A stretch of 64,000 nt of DNA from Pelagibacteraceae bacterium AG-426-M19. Lineage in GTDB: Bacteria > Pseudomonadota > Alphaproteobacteria > Pelagibacterales > Pelagibacteraceae. Position 1 is the stretch's first letter; each line of letters starts with the position of its first letter. Of this stretch, positions 1 to 7,247 are shown in pieces. The DNA is taken from contig QCNW01000002.1 in assembly GCA_003210025.1 (NCBI GenBank), positions 107,295 to 171,294 on the forward strand, given 5' to 3'. A model generated the notes under the pieces. The model saw only the letters and a list, made by a program, of their open reading frames with translations, did no database searches and had not been told where the DNA came from. Made by a program: the position numbers and the translations under genes.

Positions 1-303
1 TATTGGTCCCTCAACAGTATCACCGGTTCTTAATCCAAATCGCCTTATTTGATTTGGGCTTACATATATATCATCTGCTCCGGGTAAGTAATTAGATTCC
101 ATTGCTCTTAAAAAACCAAAACCATCTTGAAGTAATTGAAGAACACCACCTCCAGTAATTTCTTCTCCTTTTTCTGCAAGTTTTTTTAAAATAGCAAAGT
201 AGATCTCTTGTCTTCTGAGAGTGCTAGCATTTTCTATTCCTAAGTTCTCAGCTTCTTTGATTAACTGCTCTGAGCTTTTTTCTTTTAATTCTTGAATATT
301 CAT
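1..303 (-). CDS. rho: Transcription termination factor Rho, N-terminal part (runs off window)
   Basis: This is the first 101 codons of Rho, the hexameric RNA-dependent ATPase that ends transcription. It is not in the ORF track because it leaves the window at base 1. The translation starts [18 protein letters not shown] (the helical Rho_N domain) and continues with [11 protein letters not shown] and [20 protein letters not shown], which is the start of the cold-shock-like primary RNA-binding domain. The ATPase domain lies outside the window. The ATG is at 301-303, 58 bp downstream of hemJ on the same strand, so it may be read with the hem genes. I am confident of the identity. Confidence 0.95.
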
Positions 304-361: not shown

Positions 362-796
362 CTATAAAGGCTTGAAAACAACAACAAAAACTATCAAAAT
401 AAGTAATAATGTCGGTATTTCATTAATGAGTCTATAGAATTTGTGACTGTGTGCATTTTGATCTATTTTAAATTGTTTAAGAATTCTACCGAGATATAGA
501 TGATAAAGTGTTAATATAGTAACAAAAATTATTTTTAGTATCATCCAAGTTTGTCCTATTTGTTGAAATCCTATATTATGAATTAATATTACCCCAAAAA
601 TCCAAGACAAAATCATAGCTGGGGTCATAATGTAAAGAAATAATTTTCTTTCCATCGTCTTAAATATTTCTGAGGTTTTTTTTTCGGAACTGTTTTCAGC
701 ATGATAAACAAAGATTCTAGGTAAATATAGAAGTCCAGCCATCCAAGATATAACGGAAATTAAATGTAATGACTTAAACAATAGGTAAAAATTCAT
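362..796 (-). CDS. hemJ: HemJ-type protoporphyrinogen IX oxidase
   Basis: This 144-aa membrane protein has about four hydrophobic helices and fits the HemJ/UPF0093 family. That family oxidises protoporphyrinogen IX to protoporphyrin IX in bacteria lacking HemG or HemY. The N-terminus FKSLHLISVISWMAGLLYLP carries the family's His in helix 1, and the WxAGLxYLPR pattern is characteristic. It starts 2 bp after the hemH stop in the order hemE-hemH-hemJ. It therefore supplies the substrate step just before ferrochelatase, which supports the assignment. The length is normal for the family. Confidence 0.88.
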   Translation of the reverse strand: MNFYLLFKSLHLISVISWMAGLLYLPRIFVYHAENSSEKKTSEIFKTMERKLFLYIMTPAMILSWIFGVILIHNIGFQQIGQTWMILKIIFVTILTLYHLYLGRILKQFKIDQNAHSHKFYRLINEIPTLLLILIVFVVVFKPL

Positions 797-798
797 TA

Positions 799-1791
799 TT
801 ATATATTTTTTTCAATCAAATTTTTTAACAAAAGTATATGATCATCACTGTCATTCAGGCAAGGTACCATGTCAAAATTTTCTCCACCGGACTCCATAAA
901 GCTCTCTTTTCCTTGTATAAGTATTTCTTCTAATGTTTCTACACAATCAGAAGAAAAGCCAGGACATATAGCCAGGACATTTTTTTTTCCTTCTTTTGGG
1001 AGCTCTTCTAAAGTTTTGTCTGTATAAGGTTGTAACCATTTCTGTGGCCCAAATCTTGACTGAAATGTTGTTTTGATTTCAATTGAGTTTAACTTCTCTG
1101 TAATTAGCCTTGTCGTTTTATGACAATAACAATGGTATGGATCACCTTTATCAAAATATTTTTTCGGAATTCCATGATAAGAAGCTAATATTAAATCTGG
1201 TTTCCAATCAATCTCGCTGATTTTTTTATTTATAGATTTTACCAATGCCTCTATGTAAAGAGGATTGGATTCATAGTGCGGTATTATTTTTAAGGAAGGC
1301 TGCCATCTCATGTTCATGAGTGTTCTATAAACCTCATCGCAAACTGTTGCTGTGGTGGCCGCAGCATATTGAGGGTATAAAGGTAAGATTACTAAATTTT
1401 CACATCCTTCTGAATGTAGCTTTTTTATTTTACTTTTAATACTTGGATTTCCATATCTCATTGCAAAATCTATAATTAAATTTTCATTTTTAAGATAGTT
1501 AGAAGTCTTTTCCATTTGTTTTTTTGTATAATAAAGTAACGGAGACATATTTTTATCTTTCATCCAAATTTCTTTATATGCTTTAGCTGTTTTAGAGGGT
1601 CTAAACGTAAGAATAAAGAGATTAAGAATTATTTGCCAAATAATTGGGTTTAATTCGATTACTCTCCTGTCGGATAAAAATTCTTTTAAATATTTTCTTA
1701 TATCTAACCAACTGGTAGAATCGGGAGTTCCAAGGTTTATCAACAAAACTCCAGTTTTTCCAAATTTTATTGGTGGATGTTCTTGTTTCAT
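799..1791 (-). CDS. hemH: Ferrochelatase
   Basis: This 330-aa protein inserts Fe2+ into protoporphyrin IX to make protoheme. The N-terminal GVLLINLGTPDS and the SYHGIP segment near residue 206, with the catalytic His, are ferrochelatase signatures. The PLYPQYAAATTATV stretch near 140 is also typical. A Cys-rich DPYHCYCHKTTR segment follows the active-site His, and CPGFSSDCVETLEE lies near the C-terminus. Some alphaproteobacterial ferrochelatases carry an iron-sulfur cluster, but I cannot tell from sequence whether this one does. The start overlaps the hemE stop by 4 bp, indicating translational coupling. Confidence 0.96.
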   Translation of the reverse strand: MKQEHPPIKFGKTGVLLINLGTPDSTSWLDIRKYLKEFLSDRRVIELNPIIWQIILNLFILTFRPSKTAKAYKEIWMKDKNMSPLLYYTKKQMEKTSNYLKNENLIIDFAMRYGNPSIKSKIKKLHSEGCENLVILPLYPQYAAATTATVCDEVYRTLMNMRWQPSLKIIPHYESNPLYIEALVKSINKKISEIDWKPDLILASYHGIPKKYFDKGDPYHCYCHKTTRLITEKLNSIEIKTTFQSRFGPQKWLQPYTDKTLEELPKEGKKNVLAICPGFSSDCVETLEEILIQGKESFMESGGENFDMVPCLNDSDDHILLLKNLIEKNI

Positions 1792-2789
1792 TTATAATTT
1801 CTCACTGTTTCTACAAGTTCATACACCATCTCAACTTCGGTTTCAGGCAAGATGCCATGCCCTAAATTGAAAACATAAGGGTGATCTTTAAATATATTGA
1901 GATACCTCTTAATTTGTTTTCTTAAATTTTCTTTATCAGACAATAGGATCTTGGGATCCAAACCTCCCTGAACTGGCAAATCCAAAGACTTGATTAAATT
2001 TTCAGGATCTACGTTATAATCTATATTTATCATGCTTGGCTTAACAATTTTAGCGAATTTAATATAATCAGTGATTCCTCTAGGAAAGCATATAACAGGT
2101 ACACCTAAATTCTTTACATGGTTTACTAGGGATAAAGTTGGATTGTATAAAAATTTATCAAAGTCATTTTGTATTAGACCAGCCCAACTATCAAATATTT
2201 GAATTATTGTAGCGCCAGCATTTATTTGATTTTCAATATGAATCTTAATAAATTTATCCAACAAACCTAAAATTTCATTAATTATAACTTCGTCTTTAAA
2301 AAATTCTTGCGATAGTCCATTTTTAGGTGAAATTTTGTTAACCATATATACTAAAAGTGTCCATGGGGCCCCTACGAAACCAATTAAATCTTTGTTTTTA
2401 AGATCATTACTATTTTTAAGATTAGACAATAATTGATATACAGGAGATAATTTTTCTGTAAGATCTTTCTTACTTACACTTGCGAGCTTATTTAATTCAA
2501 GAGCTCCTAGACTTGGGCCAAAGTTTTTTTTAAACTCAACTGTTTGACCCATACCATGTGGTATCATTAGTATATCTGAGAATATTATTGCAGCATCAAA
2601 ACCAAATCTTTTTATTGGTTGTAATGTTATCTCTTCAGCTAAAATGTGATCCAAACATAACTTAATAAAGTCTGGGTTTGCTTTTCTAATTTTCTTAAAT
2701 TCTGGCAAATATCTACCAGCTTGCCTCATCAGCCATACTGGATTAATCTTAGTACTTTTGTTTATCAAACATTCTTTTATTGGTGTCAT
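1788..2789 (-). CDS. hemE: Uroporphyrinogen decarboxylase
   Basis: This 333-aa enzyme decarboxylates uroporphyrinogen III to coproporphyrinogen III. The N-terminal PVWLMRQAGRYLPEF is the first URO-D signature, and GFVGAPWTLLVYM and the C-terminal FNLGHGILPET are also diagnostic. The length is normal. It is the first gene of the leftward hemE-hemH-hemJ(-rho) run, and its start borders the 282-bp gap proposed here as the replication origin. In Caulobacter and Rickettsia hemE also lies next to the origin. Confidence 0.97.
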   Translation of the reverse strand: MTPIKECLINKSTKINPVWLMRQAGRYLPEFKKIRKANPDFIKLCLDHILAEEITLQPIKRFGFDAAIIFSDILMIPHGMGQTVEFKKNFGPSLGALELNKLASVSKKDLTEKLSPVYQLLSNLKNSNDLKNKDLIGFVGAPWTLLVYMVNKISPKNGLSQEFFKDEVIINEILGLLDKFIKIHIENQINAGATIIQIFDSWAGLIQNDFDKFLYNPTLSLVNHVKNLGVPVICFPRGITDYIKFAKIVKPSMINIDYNVDPENLIKSLDLPVQGGLDPKILLSDKENLRKQIKRYLNIFKDHPYVFNLGHGILPETEVEMVYELVETVRNYK

Positions 2790-2858
2790 TTATATTAAGA
2801 TAATTATATTTAGTATTTATTATTAGTATGTATTGTTGATAACGTAAATTACTCAATT

Positions 2859-2873
2859 TTAACATTTTATTAA
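2859..2873. promoter_or_regulatory. CtrA-site-like motif TTAA-N7-TTAA (site 1)
   Basis: The sequence TTAACATTTTATTAAC matches the full TTAAC-N6-TTAAC form of the alphaproteobacterial CtrA operator. CtrA blocks replication initiation at the Caulobacter origin. Because the region is so AT-rich, one match could occur by chance. The interest lies in having three in the same gap. Confidence 0.4.
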
Positions 2874-2957
2874 CTTTTTATACACTCAACTGCTCCAAAA
2901 ACCCTTTAAAAACTTGTTTATTTAATTATTTAACAAAATTCTAAAATTGTTAATAAA

Positions 2958-2966
2958 TTATTCACA
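2958..2966 (+). promoter_or_regulatory. DnaA box
   Basis: TTATTCACA is an exact match to the general DnaA box TTATNCACA. An inverted near-match, TGTTAATAA, lies just upstream at 2948-2956, giving a face-to-face pair. It is the only exact box I found in the gap. Confidence 0.5.
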
Positions 2967-2972
2967 TTAATT

Positions 2973-2987
2973 TTAAATGTTAGTTAA
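2973..2987. promoter_or_regulatory. CtrA-site-like motif TTAA-N7-TTAA (site 2)
   Basis: TTAAATGTTAGTTAA fits TTAA-N7-TTAA and lies 6 bp from the exact DnaA box. That closeness could let a repressor compete with DnaA, as at the Caulobacter origin. This is inference from spacing only. Confidence 0.35.
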
Positions 2988-3038
2988 ATGAGTAAAAAAA
3001 ATATTTCTTTTAGAATTTTACCAAATGAAACTTATTTC

Positions 3039-3053
3039 TTAAATTAAAATTAA
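3039..3053. promoter_or_regulatory. CtrA-site-like motif TTAA-N7-TTAA (site 3)
   Basis: TTAAATTAAAATTAAC fits TTAA-N7-TTAAC and lies about 20 bp before the ppsR start codon. It could also be a plain AT-rich promoter element, and it is the weakest of the three because the spacer is itself TTAA-like. Confidence 0.3.
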
Positions 3054-3071
3054 CTTATAAACAAATTATAC

Positions 3072-3893
3072 ATGAAAAATACATACCAAATATTCCTAAT
3101 CTCCGATTCAACCGGAGAAACTTTGGATAGAATTTTCATGGCTTTAAAAGCTCAATTTAACAACTTTACTTACGAGTTAAATCAATTTTCTTTTACGAGA
3201 ACAGAAACTCAGATATCAACCATACTCAAAAATGCAAAAAAACAAGATAGCCCTATCATATTATATACTGTTGTTAATAATAAACTTGCAAAATATTTAG
3301 CCCAAGAAGCAAATAAAATTAATATACCTTGTTTTGGTGTTCTGGGAGATCTAATTTTAAATTTCTCAAAAATTCTAAATCAAAAAGCAACTCATAAGCC
3401 TAGCGGACAACATGTTTTAGATGATGAATATTATAAAAGAATTGAAGCAATTCAATTTACAATGAACCATGATGATGGAAACCAAGCGGGGAATATCCTT
3501 GATTCAGATATTATATTAATTGGTGTTAGTAGAACTAGCAAAACACCAACCTCTATTTATTTGGCTAATAGGGGTTTAAAAACCGCTAACATACCATTAG
3601 TAAATGAAATGAAAATCCCGAAAGATGTAATTGAGTCCAAAAACCTATGTATAGTTGGGCTAGTAACAGAAGCTGAAAGATTATTTGATATTCGACGTAA
3701 CAGATTAAATTCGCTTAGAGAAAATGAAACATCTGAATACACAGACTTAGAAAAAATTAAAATTGAAGTTGAGAATTCAAAGAAAATTTTTAAAAAAAAT
3801 AAATGGCCTACAATAGATGTAACAAGAAAATCAGTTGAAGAGACCGCTGCTTCAATAATAAAAATATATGAAATAAAAAATAAAAATGGATAA
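3072..3893 (+). CDS. ppsR: Pyruvate,phosphate dikinase / PEP synthase regulatory protein (DUF299)
   Basis: This 273-aa protein belongs to the DUF299 family of bifunctional ADP-dependent kinase / Pi-dependent pyrophosphorylase enzymes. These switch PPDK or PEP synthase off and on by threonine phosphorylation. The N-terminal FLISDSTGETLD and the P-loop GVSRTSKTPTSIYLANRG near residues 152-168 are the family signatures. The length is normal. Which target enzyme it acts on cannot be read from this window. It is the first gene right of the candidate origin, as its homologue is in Caulobacter and Rickettsia, and it overlaps maf by 8 bp. Confidence 0.93.
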   Translation: MKNTYQIFLISDSTGETLDRIFMALKAQFNNFTYELNQFSFTRTETQISTILKNAKKQDSPIILYTVVNNKLAKYLAQEANKINIPCFGVLGDLILNFSKILNQKATHKPSGQHVLDDEYYKRIEAIQFTMNHDDGNQAGNILDSDIILIGVSRTSKTPTSIYLANRGLKTANIPLVNEMKIPKDVIESKNLCIVGLVTEAERLFDIRRNRLNSLRENETSEYTDLEKIKIEVENSKKIFKKNKWPTIDVTRKSVEETAASIIKIYEIKNKNG

Positions 3894-4470
3894 GTTAATT
3901 TTAGCTTCAAAAAGTAAGGTAAGGTATGAAATTCTTTTAAAATATAATATCAAATGTATAGTTGAACACTCAAATGTAGATGAAGAACCTGTAAAACAAA
4001 GTTTATTAAATGAAGGTGCAACTCCAGAAATTATTTCAAAAAATTTAGCTGAATTGAAAGCAAACAAAGTGAGTCAGAAACTGCACGATCAGTTAGTTTT
4101 AGGGGCTGACAGCGTTATAGACCTAAGTGGTGAATTAATTTCTAAACCAGAAAATAGAGAACAAGCATTTAATATTTTAAAAAAATTAAATGGAAAAATT
4201 CACCATTTAATAAGTTCTGTATGTATTTCAAAAAATGGATCTATGGTTTGGAATTATACAGATAAAGCAAATTTAACGATGAAAGAGTTTACTGATGGTG
4301 ATTTGAAAGAGTATTTAAACAAGATATCAGATGAAGATTTATACTCTTATAATGTCTATCAAATAGAAGGTGAAGGAAGAAATTTATTCTCTAAGATCGA
4401 TGGAGATCAAAATACTATTATGGGTCTTCCCATAGATAAAATTAAACAATATATTGAAGGTCTCCAGTGA
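3886..4470 (+). CDS. maf: Maf-family nucleoside triphosphate pyrophosphatase
   Basis: This 194-aa protein has the Maf/HAM1-like fold that hydrolyses non-canonical or excess nucleoside triphosphates to the monophosphates. LILASKSKVRYEIL at the N-terminus is the Maf SxSxxR signature, and VLGADSVIDLSGELISKP carries the conserved acidic residues. It overlaps ppsR by 8 bp and aroE by 4 bp, in the order ppsR-maf-aroE known from alphaproteobacterial origins. The exact nucleotide preference cannot be told from the sequence. Confidence 0.92.
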   Translation: MDKLILASKSKVRYEILLKYNIKCIVEHSNVDEEPVKQSLLNEGATPEIISKNLAELKANKVSQKLHDQLVLGADSVIDLSGELISKPENREQAFNILKKLNGKIHHLISSVCISKNGSMVWNYTDKANLTMKEFTDGDLKEYLNKISDEDLYSYNVYQIEGEGRNLFSKIDGDQNTIMGLPIDKIKQYIEGLQ

Positions 4471-5261
4471 AAAAATATTTAGTTGTTGGAAATCCTATTG
4501 AACATTCATTGTCACCAAAGCTCCAAAATTATTGGTTAAATTTTAATAATATTGAGGCAATCTATGGAAAATTGCAGGCATACGATGATGATTTAAAAGA
4601 ATTGTGTAGTAGTATTAGAAATGGTCAATTAAACGGTCTTAACATTACAGTTCCTTTTAAAAAAAAAATTATACCTCATTTAGATGTGTTAAGTGGCCAT
4701 GCTTTAAGAACTCAGTCTGTAAACACAGTTTGTTTGAATAATGGAAATGTTACTGGTTACAACACCGATATAGATGGATTTGAGCTTAGTCTCAAAAATC
4801 TAGACTACGACGTTAGTAATAAAAAAGTATTCATTTTGGGAGCAGGAGGAGTTGTGCCATCAATTATATATGCTCTAAAAAAGATGAATGCCCCACAGAT
4901 ATATTTAAGTAATAGAACTAAAGAGAAAGCAGTTATTTTAAAAAAGTTATTTGATGGGTTAGAAGTTATAGATTGGGGAATACTTCCTGACTTTGACATG
5001 ATTATTAATGCTACTAGTCTTGGATTAAAGAAAAATGATAAATTTGAAATTGATTTTTCGAAGGCTGGAAATAATAAACTATTTTTTGACGTAATTTATA
5101 ATCCATTTAACACAGAATTTTCTCAAGCCGGAAATAAACCAGGAAATATAATTGAGAATGGTCTAAATATGTTCTTATTTCAAGCACAAAAAGCATTTAG
5201 TATATGGCATGATATTGAACCAAAGATTGATCAAAAAGTAATAAAATTTTTAGAAAGTTAA
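4467..5261 (+). CDS. aroE: Shikimate dehydrogenase
   Basis: This 264-aa NADPH-dependent enzyme reduces 3-dehydroshikimate to shikimate in aromatic amino acid synthesis. The N-terminus has the substrate motif GNPIEHSLSPKLQN, then LNGLNITVPFKKK with the catalytic Lys. TGYNTDIDGF follows, then the dinucleotide-binding loop VFILGAGGVVPSI near residue 125. The C-terminal NGLNMFLFQAQKAF is typical. It overlaps maf by 4 bp and is followed 5 bp later by an SDR gene. Confidence 0.96.
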   Translation: MKKYLVVGNPIEHSLSPKLQNYWLNFNNIEAIYGKLQAYDDDLKELCSSIRNGQLNGLNITVPFKKKIIPHLDVLSGHALRTQSVNTVCLNNGNVTGYNTDIDGFELSLKNLDYDVSNKKVFILGAGGVVPSIIYALKKMNAPQIYLSNRTKEKAVILKKLFDGLEVIDWGILPDFDMIINATSLGLKKNDKFEIDFSKAGNNKLFFDVIYNPFNTEFSQAGNKPGNIIENGLNMFLFQAQKAFSIWHDIEPKIDQKVIKFLES

Positions 5262-6013: not shown

Positions 6014-6601
6014 ATGATTAGAGTTGGTGTTATTGGAGGAATTGGATCTGGTAAATCTTTTATATCTAAACTTTTTAAATCACCTGTTTTTAACGCAGAT
6101 GAGGAAGTAAAAATTTTATATAAAAATAATTTCGAATGTTACAAAAAATTAAGAAAAATACTTCCTAGATTTGTAAAATCTTTCCCGATATCAAAAAGTC
6201 AGTTAATAAAAGCCATTAATGAAGATAAAAAAAATTTGAAAAAAATATCTTCTGTAGTCCACCCATTAATTAGAAAGAAAATGAAATTATTTTTAAATAA
6301 AAATAAAAAAAGTAAAATTATAATTTTAGATATTCCCCTATTAATAGAAAATAAACTTTATAACAAAAAAGATATTTTGATATTTGTAAAATCTAATCAA
6401 AAAAAAGTAATTAATAGATTGAGAAAAAGAAAAAATTATAACAAAAAAATCCTTCTAAATTTAAGAAAAAACCAAGATAAGTTGTTAAAAAAAAGAAAAT
6501 TGGCAAATTATATTGTCGATAATAATTTTAGTCCAAATATAATGAGAAAAAAAATTAATTCTTTAAAAAATAAAATTTTAAATGAAAGAAATAGTACTTG
6601 A
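6014..6601 (+). CDS. coaE: Dephospho-CoA kinase
   Basis: This 195-aa kinase performs the last step of coenzyme A synthesis, phosphorylating the ribose 3'-OH of dephospho-CoA. The N-terminal GVIGGIGSGKSFIS is the P-loop, and ILDIPLLIENKL near residue 113 is the conserved acceptor-site region. The C-terminal half is extremely Lys-rich (runs such as KKRKL), reflecting A-rich codons rather than any visible extra domain. It overlaps dnaQ by 20 bp, and this coaE-dnaQ pairing is typical of alphaproteobacterial origins. Confidence 0.92.
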   Translation: MIRVGVIGGIGSGKSFISKLFKSPVFNADEEVKILYKNNFECYKKLRKILPRFVKSFPISKSQLIKAINEDKKNLKKISSVVHPLIRKKMKLFLNKNKKSKIIILDIPLLIENKLYNKKDILIFVKSNQKKVINRLRKRKNYNKKILLNLRKNQDKLLKKRKLANYIVDNNFSPNIMRKKINSLKNKILNERNST

Positions 6602-7247
6602 TACCGAAACCACAGGCCTCTCGGTAAAAGATGGACATAGAATAGTTGAAATTGGCTGTATAGAAATTGAAAACTTAATACCAACTAAAAAAATTTTTCA
6701 TTGTTATCTAAACCCTGAAAGAAAAGTTTCTGAGAGTGCACTAAAAGTTCATGGATATACAGACAAATTTTTAGCAGATAAAAAAAAGTTTATTGATGTA
6801 GCAGATGATTTTTTAAAATTTATAGAAGGAAAAAAAATAATAATTCATAATGCGGAATTTGATATAGGTCACCTTAATAATGAGCTGTCATTAATAAAGA
6901 AAGAAAAAATTTCAAAAGAAAACGTTATAGATACTCTTGAAATTGCTAGAAACAAATTTCCTGGATCTGGAATCAGTTTAGATGCATTATGTAAAAGATT
7001 TAGAATAGATAACTCTAGAAGAGAAAAACATACAGCTTTAATTGATTGTGAATTACTATCAAAAGTTTATGTTAATTTAATTGATCAAAAAGAGCCAATA
7101 TTCCAATTTCAAAAAGAAATAAAAAAAAGAAAACAAATCAATGAAGAAATATATTATTCAAAAAAAATTATAAAGCCATCAAAACAAGAATTAGATGATC
7201 ATAAAGAATTTATGAAAAGAGAATTGAAAAGAAATTTCTTTAATTAA
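6582..7247 (+). CDS. dnaQ: DNA polymerase III epsilon subunit (3'-5' proofreading exonuclease)
   Basis: This 221-aa DEDDh exonuclease proofreads for the replicative polymerase. Exo I is VLDTETTG (residues 5-12), Exo II is HNAEFDIGHLNNEL, and Exo III is KHTALIDCELLSKVYVNL with the catalytic His and Asp. The C-terminal tail is Lys-rich and shorter than in E. coli (about 240 aa). The chosen ATG lies inside the end of coaE, but the next residues already form Exo I, so a later start is impossible. It converges on secB, and the two stop ends overlap by 8 bp. Confidence 0.95.
   Translation: MKEIVLDTETTGLSVKDGHRIVEIGCIEIENLIPTKKIFHCYLNPERKVSESALKVHGYTDKFLADKKKFIDVADDFLKFIEGKKIIIHNAEFDIGHLNNELSLIKKEKISKENVIDTLEIARNKFPGSGISLDALCKRFRIDNSRREKHTALIDCELLSKVYVNLIDQKEPIFQFQKEIKKRKQINEEIYYSKKIIKPSKQELDDHKEFMKRELKRNFFN

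Follow-up and report, generated by a model that had tools for sequence, protein, structure and literature searches.

The hemE-ppsR intergenic gap as the probable chromosomal origin of SAR11 bacteria, with a DnaA box cluster and a putative DnaA-trio array

The hemE-ppsR gap and its neighbours

The DNA analysed here, referred to below as the window, is a stretch of 64 kb (G000:C2:107295-171294) from a Pelagibacteraceae genome (G000) of 1.256 Mb in 25 contigs with a completeness of about 91%. The start codons of the divergent genes hemE and ppsR bound exactly positions 2790-3071, an intergenic gap of 282 bp with a GC content of 16%, and profile matches place rho, hemJ, hemH and hemE on one side of it and ppsR, maf, aroE, coaE and dnaQ on the other. 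Both the AT-rich gap and the genes that flank it had been named in an earlier sequence-only reading of this DNA and were recovered here, the gap with the same coordinates.

1..303, minus strand: rho, truncated at the window edge to its first 101 codons (TIGR00767)
362..796, minus strand: hemJ, protoporphyrinogen oxidase (TIGR00701)
799..1791, minus strand: hemH, ferrochelatase (TIGR00109)
1788..2789, minus strand: hemE, uroporphyrinogen decarboxylase, left flank (TIGR01464, 305.6 bits, cut-off 302.95)
2790..3071, no strand: proposed oriC, the hemE-ppsR intergenic gap (282 bp, 16% GC, low stability, counterpart gaps in relatives)
3072..3893, plus strand: ppsR (DUF299/COG1806, RP001-type), right flank (NF003742, 314.9 bits, cut-off 225)
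3886..4470, plus strand: maf (TIGR00172, 120.5 bits, cut-off 117.15)
4467..5261, plus strand: aroE (TIGR00507, 206.5 bits, cut-off 200.2)
6014..6601, plus strand: coaE (TIGR00152)
6582..7247, plus strand: dnaQ (TIGR01406)

The interval between aroE and coaE holds a frame that, judged by eye, is short-chain dehydrogenase-like, and an Rfam search of the hemE-ppsR gap returned no match. GC content is 29% in the complete relative G043 and 22-38% along the window, so that the gap is richer in AT than the genome average, and in duplex stability the 282-bp window that starts at 2790 is the 43rd lowest of 63718 windows. The 12 least stable 60-bp windows of the 64 kb include none from the gap, and low stability was therefore dropped as a pointer to a single unwinding site.

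For the comparison with relatives, PpsR homologues were gathered from 147 genomes of the family plus the genome collection, with some loci coming from the same genome, and dereplication left 84 distinct gaps that were used for shuffles and per-column counts. Gap lengths were taken at every locus where both genes were readable, two loci being cut off before hemE. About 107 other Pelagibacteraceae records carry the two genes divergently on either side of a gap of 254-291 bp. Length varies just as little in two neighbouring divergent gaps (58 and 90 bp), whose sequences are more similar, and constancy of length was accordingly set aside as evidence for an origin. Outside the family, 27 of the 29 loci examined from other alphaproteobacterial families have hemE facing ppsR; these 29 are best-scoring loci and not a random draw. 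The arrangement matches the placement of the origin between hemE and the DUF299/RP001 gene in Caulobacter and Rickettsia (PMC1914354), to which the sequence-only reading had appealed. In one genome the hemE frame (G040:C1:358209-359176) is split by two in-frame TAA codons, reflecting either real decay or sequencing error.

DnaA boxes and a putative DnaA-trio array

Sites that match TTATNCACA with at most one mismatch lie in the gap at 2834(-), 2878(+), 2948(-), 2958(+, exact) and 3055(+), and our recount thus arrived at the same one exact and four one-mismatch boxes as had been reported before. Together with a weaker box and the elements next to box 1, the gap contains the following features.

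2818..2829, plus strand: putative DnaA-trio array TAT-TAT-TAG-TAT (5'-3'), followed by the conserved G2830 (alignment of 84 gaps)
2830..2833, plus strand: spacer GTAT, 4 bp, from the trios to box 1 (G2830 in 76/84)
2834..2842, minus strand: predicted DnaA box 1, TTATCAACA, which is TTATTAACA or TTATTCACA in relatives; the box nearest hemE
2843..2851, plus strand: conserved CGTAAATTA abutting box 1 (66-83/84 per column)
2867..2875, plus strand: weak predicted DnaA box 2a, TTATTAACT, two mismatches; box 2b lies 11 bp downstream
2878..2886, plus strand: predicted DnaA box 2b, TTATACACT, one mismatch (match and alignment)
2948..2956, minus strand: predicted DnaA box 3, TTATTAACA, one mismatch (match and alignment)
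2958..2966, plus strand: predicted DnaA box 4, TTATTCACA, exact (match and alignment)
3055..3063, plus strand: predicted DnaA box 5, TTATAAACA, one mismatch, 8 bp before the ppsR start; the most conserved box (0.893)

Taken singly, exact TTATNCACA boxes are at chance level (4 in 64 kb, 4.0 expected). As a cluster, the five boxes of the gap compare with a mean of 0.65 in dinucleotide shuffles of the gap, and 0 of 1000 shuffles reach five. By both measures, the hemE-ppsR gap is the densest box cluster of the 171-kb contig C2: exact TTATNMACA occurs four times in the gap and at most once in every other 290-bp window of the contig, and the other C2 intergenic regions of at least 150 bp hold no more than three boxes each. 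Across the 84 distinct gaps we counted 347 boxes with at most one mismatch, against 63.7±6.4 in shuffles, and 218 exact TTATNMACA sites, against 13.6±3.4. Boxes of the same orientation are spaced by 11 bp 39 times (1.8 in shuffles) and by 10 bp 24 times (2.1 in shuffles), that is, by one helical turn, and boxes 2a and 2b of the window are an example of this preferred tandem spacing.

The box columns are also the best-conserved part of the gap, with a mean consensus of 0.832 vs 0.706 elsewhere and 0 of 281 rotations as high, and conservation of the boxes among SAR11 relatives, proposed earlier as a check on the origin, was thus confirmed. Box sequences drift between relatives although their positions are kept. 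Two observations count against reading the gap as oriC: the exactness of its single exact box is not kept across relatives, and the G043 gap has just three boxes with at most one mismatch, a number that two other intergenic regions of that genome equal. The CGTAAATTA element at 2843-2851 shows the same degree of conservation as the boxes and corresponds to none of the motifs tried. On the protein side, the RDHTTV stretch of DnaA domain IV is kept in SAR11, and we take these residues to have the role that they have in E. coli.

The most conserved 40 bp of the gap begin at 2818 and comprise four triplets, the GTAT spacer and box 1 on the opposite strand. This array, which the sequence-only reading had missed, is by its sequence a DnaA-trio strand-opening motif. 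Read 3'-5' it is G-TAT-GAT-TAT-TAT, and its general form is 5'-TAT TAK TAK TAT-G-3', in which the T and A of the triplets are kept in 74-84 of the 84 gaps and the third base, mostly T or G, differs among genomes. DnaA-trios belong to an origin unwinding system (BUS) that was described in B. subtilis and that is predicted for 85% of the bacterial origins examined (PMC8287927). The BUS criterion, a DnaA box no more than 16 bp from at least three NAN trios, has its counterpart here in four trios, a 4-bp spacer and box 1.

The combined trio and box pattern is found in 64 of the 84 distinct gaps vs 0.1 of 84 shuffled gaps. In its fixed form it has one match in contig C2 and one in the whole 1.379-Mb G043 genome, both at the gap. 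Since the pattern was derived from the same alignment, these counts are not an independent test. When 12 genomes were scanned with a near version, the only hits were at the gap of G000 and that of G043, apart from one stray site in G063, and the fixed pattern is too strict to serve as a general origin finder beyond close relatives. In genera that are sparsely represented in the alignment or missing from it, box 1 has related trios next to it (TATTAGTAGTAT in G005, TATTAGTATTATTAG-GCA in G021 and G007, TATTAGTATTGGTAG in G012). We also considered a motif of trios plus GTG..CGGGGAT as common to other alphaproteobacteria and rejected it, the GTG..CGGGGAT part occurring in 5 of 27 gaps, which is suggestive only.

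Divergent genes need promoters within the gap between them, other divergent gaps nearby are conserved too, and promoters of other bacteria contain DnaA boxes (PMC4468827), all of which would suit a gap that is merely a two-way hemE/ppsR promoter region with DnaA as a transcription regulator. Against this, the gap measures 282 bp, compared with the 58 and 90 bp of the two other divergent gaps, and the trio array, the tandem boxes one turn apart and the presence of at least five boxes are features of origins. One SAR11 genus (G009) bears on the same question, with hemE at 718 kb and ppsR at 141 kb, about 577 kb apart. There, rho faces ppsR over a 353-bp AT-rich gap (L263:1329-1681) that retains TTATTAG-GTCA-TGTTTATAA, a trio-like element, and the persistence of this element with ppsR when hemE is gone argues against a plain hemE promoter. 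One gap may serve as promoter and origin at once. We regard promoter function on its own as a very improbable account of the gap.

GC skew and the position of the origin

The cumulative GC skew of G043 is V-shaped, with a minimum at about 637 kb and a maximum at about 1337 kb. The gap lies at 604.7 kb and dnaA at 667 kb, and the minimum thus falls 32 kb from the gap, between hemE and dnaA. The region of G043 around this global minimum, 548-704 kb, is almost colinear with contig C2. We fitted a two-arm skew model to complete G043 and, for G003, G005 and G009, to 20 sampled stretches per genome, using 10-kb bins that are not independent. In all four, the gap is 0-1.7 log-likelihood units from the best origin; it is the exact best fit in G005, and in G003 the best-fit origin is 133 kb away from it. 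With dnaA as the origin, the fit is worse by 4.0 (G005) and 5.3 (G009) log-likelihood units. Over the 60 kb around the gap the skew is flat and bumpy, and C2 has no clear turn at the gap. SAR11 skew mostly follows gene orientation, and the orientation-corrected, noncoding and third-position skews of G043 have weak, scattered extrema. The skew is compatible with the gap and somewhat against dnaA, and it does not place the origin better than to about 50-100 kb.

A skew minimum elsewhere had been put forward earlier as evidence that would speak against the gap, and no minimum clearly elsewhere emerged: the gap is within the supported range of four relatives and dnaA is disfavoured in two, but the skew is too noisy to pin the gap itself. 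The window had also been described as covering the start of the right replichore, which follows from the origin position, but the 60 kb of the window to the right of the gap do not show the rise in GC skew that a leading arm should have. Because skew in SAR11 mostly tracks gene orientation, this designation depends on where the origin lies and not on local skew.

Throughout the genus, dnaA is about 63 kb and parB about 10 kb from the gap, and this proximity, with the G043 skew minimum between hemE and dnaA, would accommodate an origin elsewhere in the same 60-kb neighbourhood, beside dnaA or parAB as in many other bacteria. However, a 244-bp gap near dnaA in C2 has a single box, the other C2 intergenic regions of at least 150 bp stay at or below the three boxes given above, and the fits in G005 and G009 disfavour dnaA; we therefore hold such a location to be the least probable of the explanations considered, slightly behind promoter function alone.

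Position matters in practice, as SAR11 is among the most abundant bacterial groups of the ocean and a pinned origin would allow its growth in seawater to be estimated by peak-to-trough read-depth methods. The one paper that we found to use a SAR11 origin took its position from GC skew (PMC9516812), which is noisy at this locus.

A proposed SAR11 origin and its likeness to known origins

The case for oriC from this analysis consists of gene context, the box cluster, conservation, the trio array, the single occurrence of the trio-box pattern in each of the two sequences searched with it and agreement of the skew. On this evidence the hemE-ppsR gap is very probably the chromosomal oriC, an origin of the same hemE-oriC-ppsR type as those of Caulobacter and Rickettsia, and the central proposal of the sequence-only reading is upheld. 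By analogy with the B. subtilis-type unwinding system (PMC8287927) and the Caulobacter origin, we infer that DnaA binds, unwinds and initiates at the gap. In the proposed sequence of events, DnaA would occupy box 1 together with the other boxes, and a DnaA filament would grow leftwards from box 1 along the single strand that carries the four TAK triplets, opening the hemE side, where the DNA is very rich in AT. Helicase loading would come next, and two forks would depart in opposite directions. The tandem boxes 2a and 2b, one helical turn apart, may together with boxes 3, 4 and 5 assemble and time the DnaA complex. Our literature search found no paper on the SAR11 origin sequence, and a database prediction (such as in DoriC) may well exist. 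The SAR11 origin is ordinary in type and useful in practice, its 282 bp offering a defined target for the study of replication control in a streamlined cell.

Compared with BUS (DnaA-box, spacer and DnaA-trios, known from B. subtilis and others; PMC8287927), the gap likewise has a box, a short spacer and at least three NAN trios on one strand, 3'-GAT-5' included. It differs in that the putative SAR11 trios are mostly 3'-TAT/GAT-5' and in that the 4-bp spacer of the window is low in GC. With the Rickettsia origin (hemE-RP001) the gap shares its flanking genes and a small AT-rich genome (PMC1914354), whereas the SAR11 gap is short and of near constant length. The likeness to Cori of Caulobacter crescentus (hemE-oriC-COG1806) extends to the flanking genes (PMC1914354), an AT-rich part and several weak, rather than strong, DnaA boxes (PMC4468827). 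Unlike Cori, for which five CtrA sites and a single IHF site are reported (PMC1914354), the gap of the window is without an exact IHF site, no CtrA was recognised in the genome, and the boxes are of the TTATNMACA form instead of Caulobacter G-boxes.

The exact IHF site WATCAANNNNTTR, a Cori feature that serves as a search criterion but is not required of every origin, occurs 0 times in the window gap and 7 times in the 84 gaps, against 7.3 in shuffles, which is chance level. CtrA-type TTAA-N7-TTAA sites number 3 in the window gap and 51 in the 84 gaps (22.8±5.2 in shuffles), an excess that the tandem boxes explain at least in part. No OmpR-type regulator reaches the CtrA model cut-off in G000, which has PhoB and two others, or in G043, which has an additional OmpR-like protein; the origins of E. 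ruminantium are without CtrA sites (PMC1914354). A degenerate OmpR-type regulator at about 92 kb of G000:C2 (L297:1492-2070) matches over the DNA-binding half only, and the complete relatives have similar matches no more than about 10 kb from parB. GANTC (CcrM) sites are nearly excluded, with 3 in the 84 gaps vs 17.3±4.2 in shuffles and none in the window gap, compared with 1.1-1.3 per kb in C2 and G043; a CcrM homolog is present in SAR11 (PMC3973325). We tentatively suggest, with somewhat less than even confidence, that the SAR11 origin is a pared-down form of the alphaproteobacterial one: a trio and DnaA-box core of near constant length, with IHF sites at chance level, no CtrA recognised and GANTC nearly excluded despite CcrM, at which DnaA alone might set initiation.
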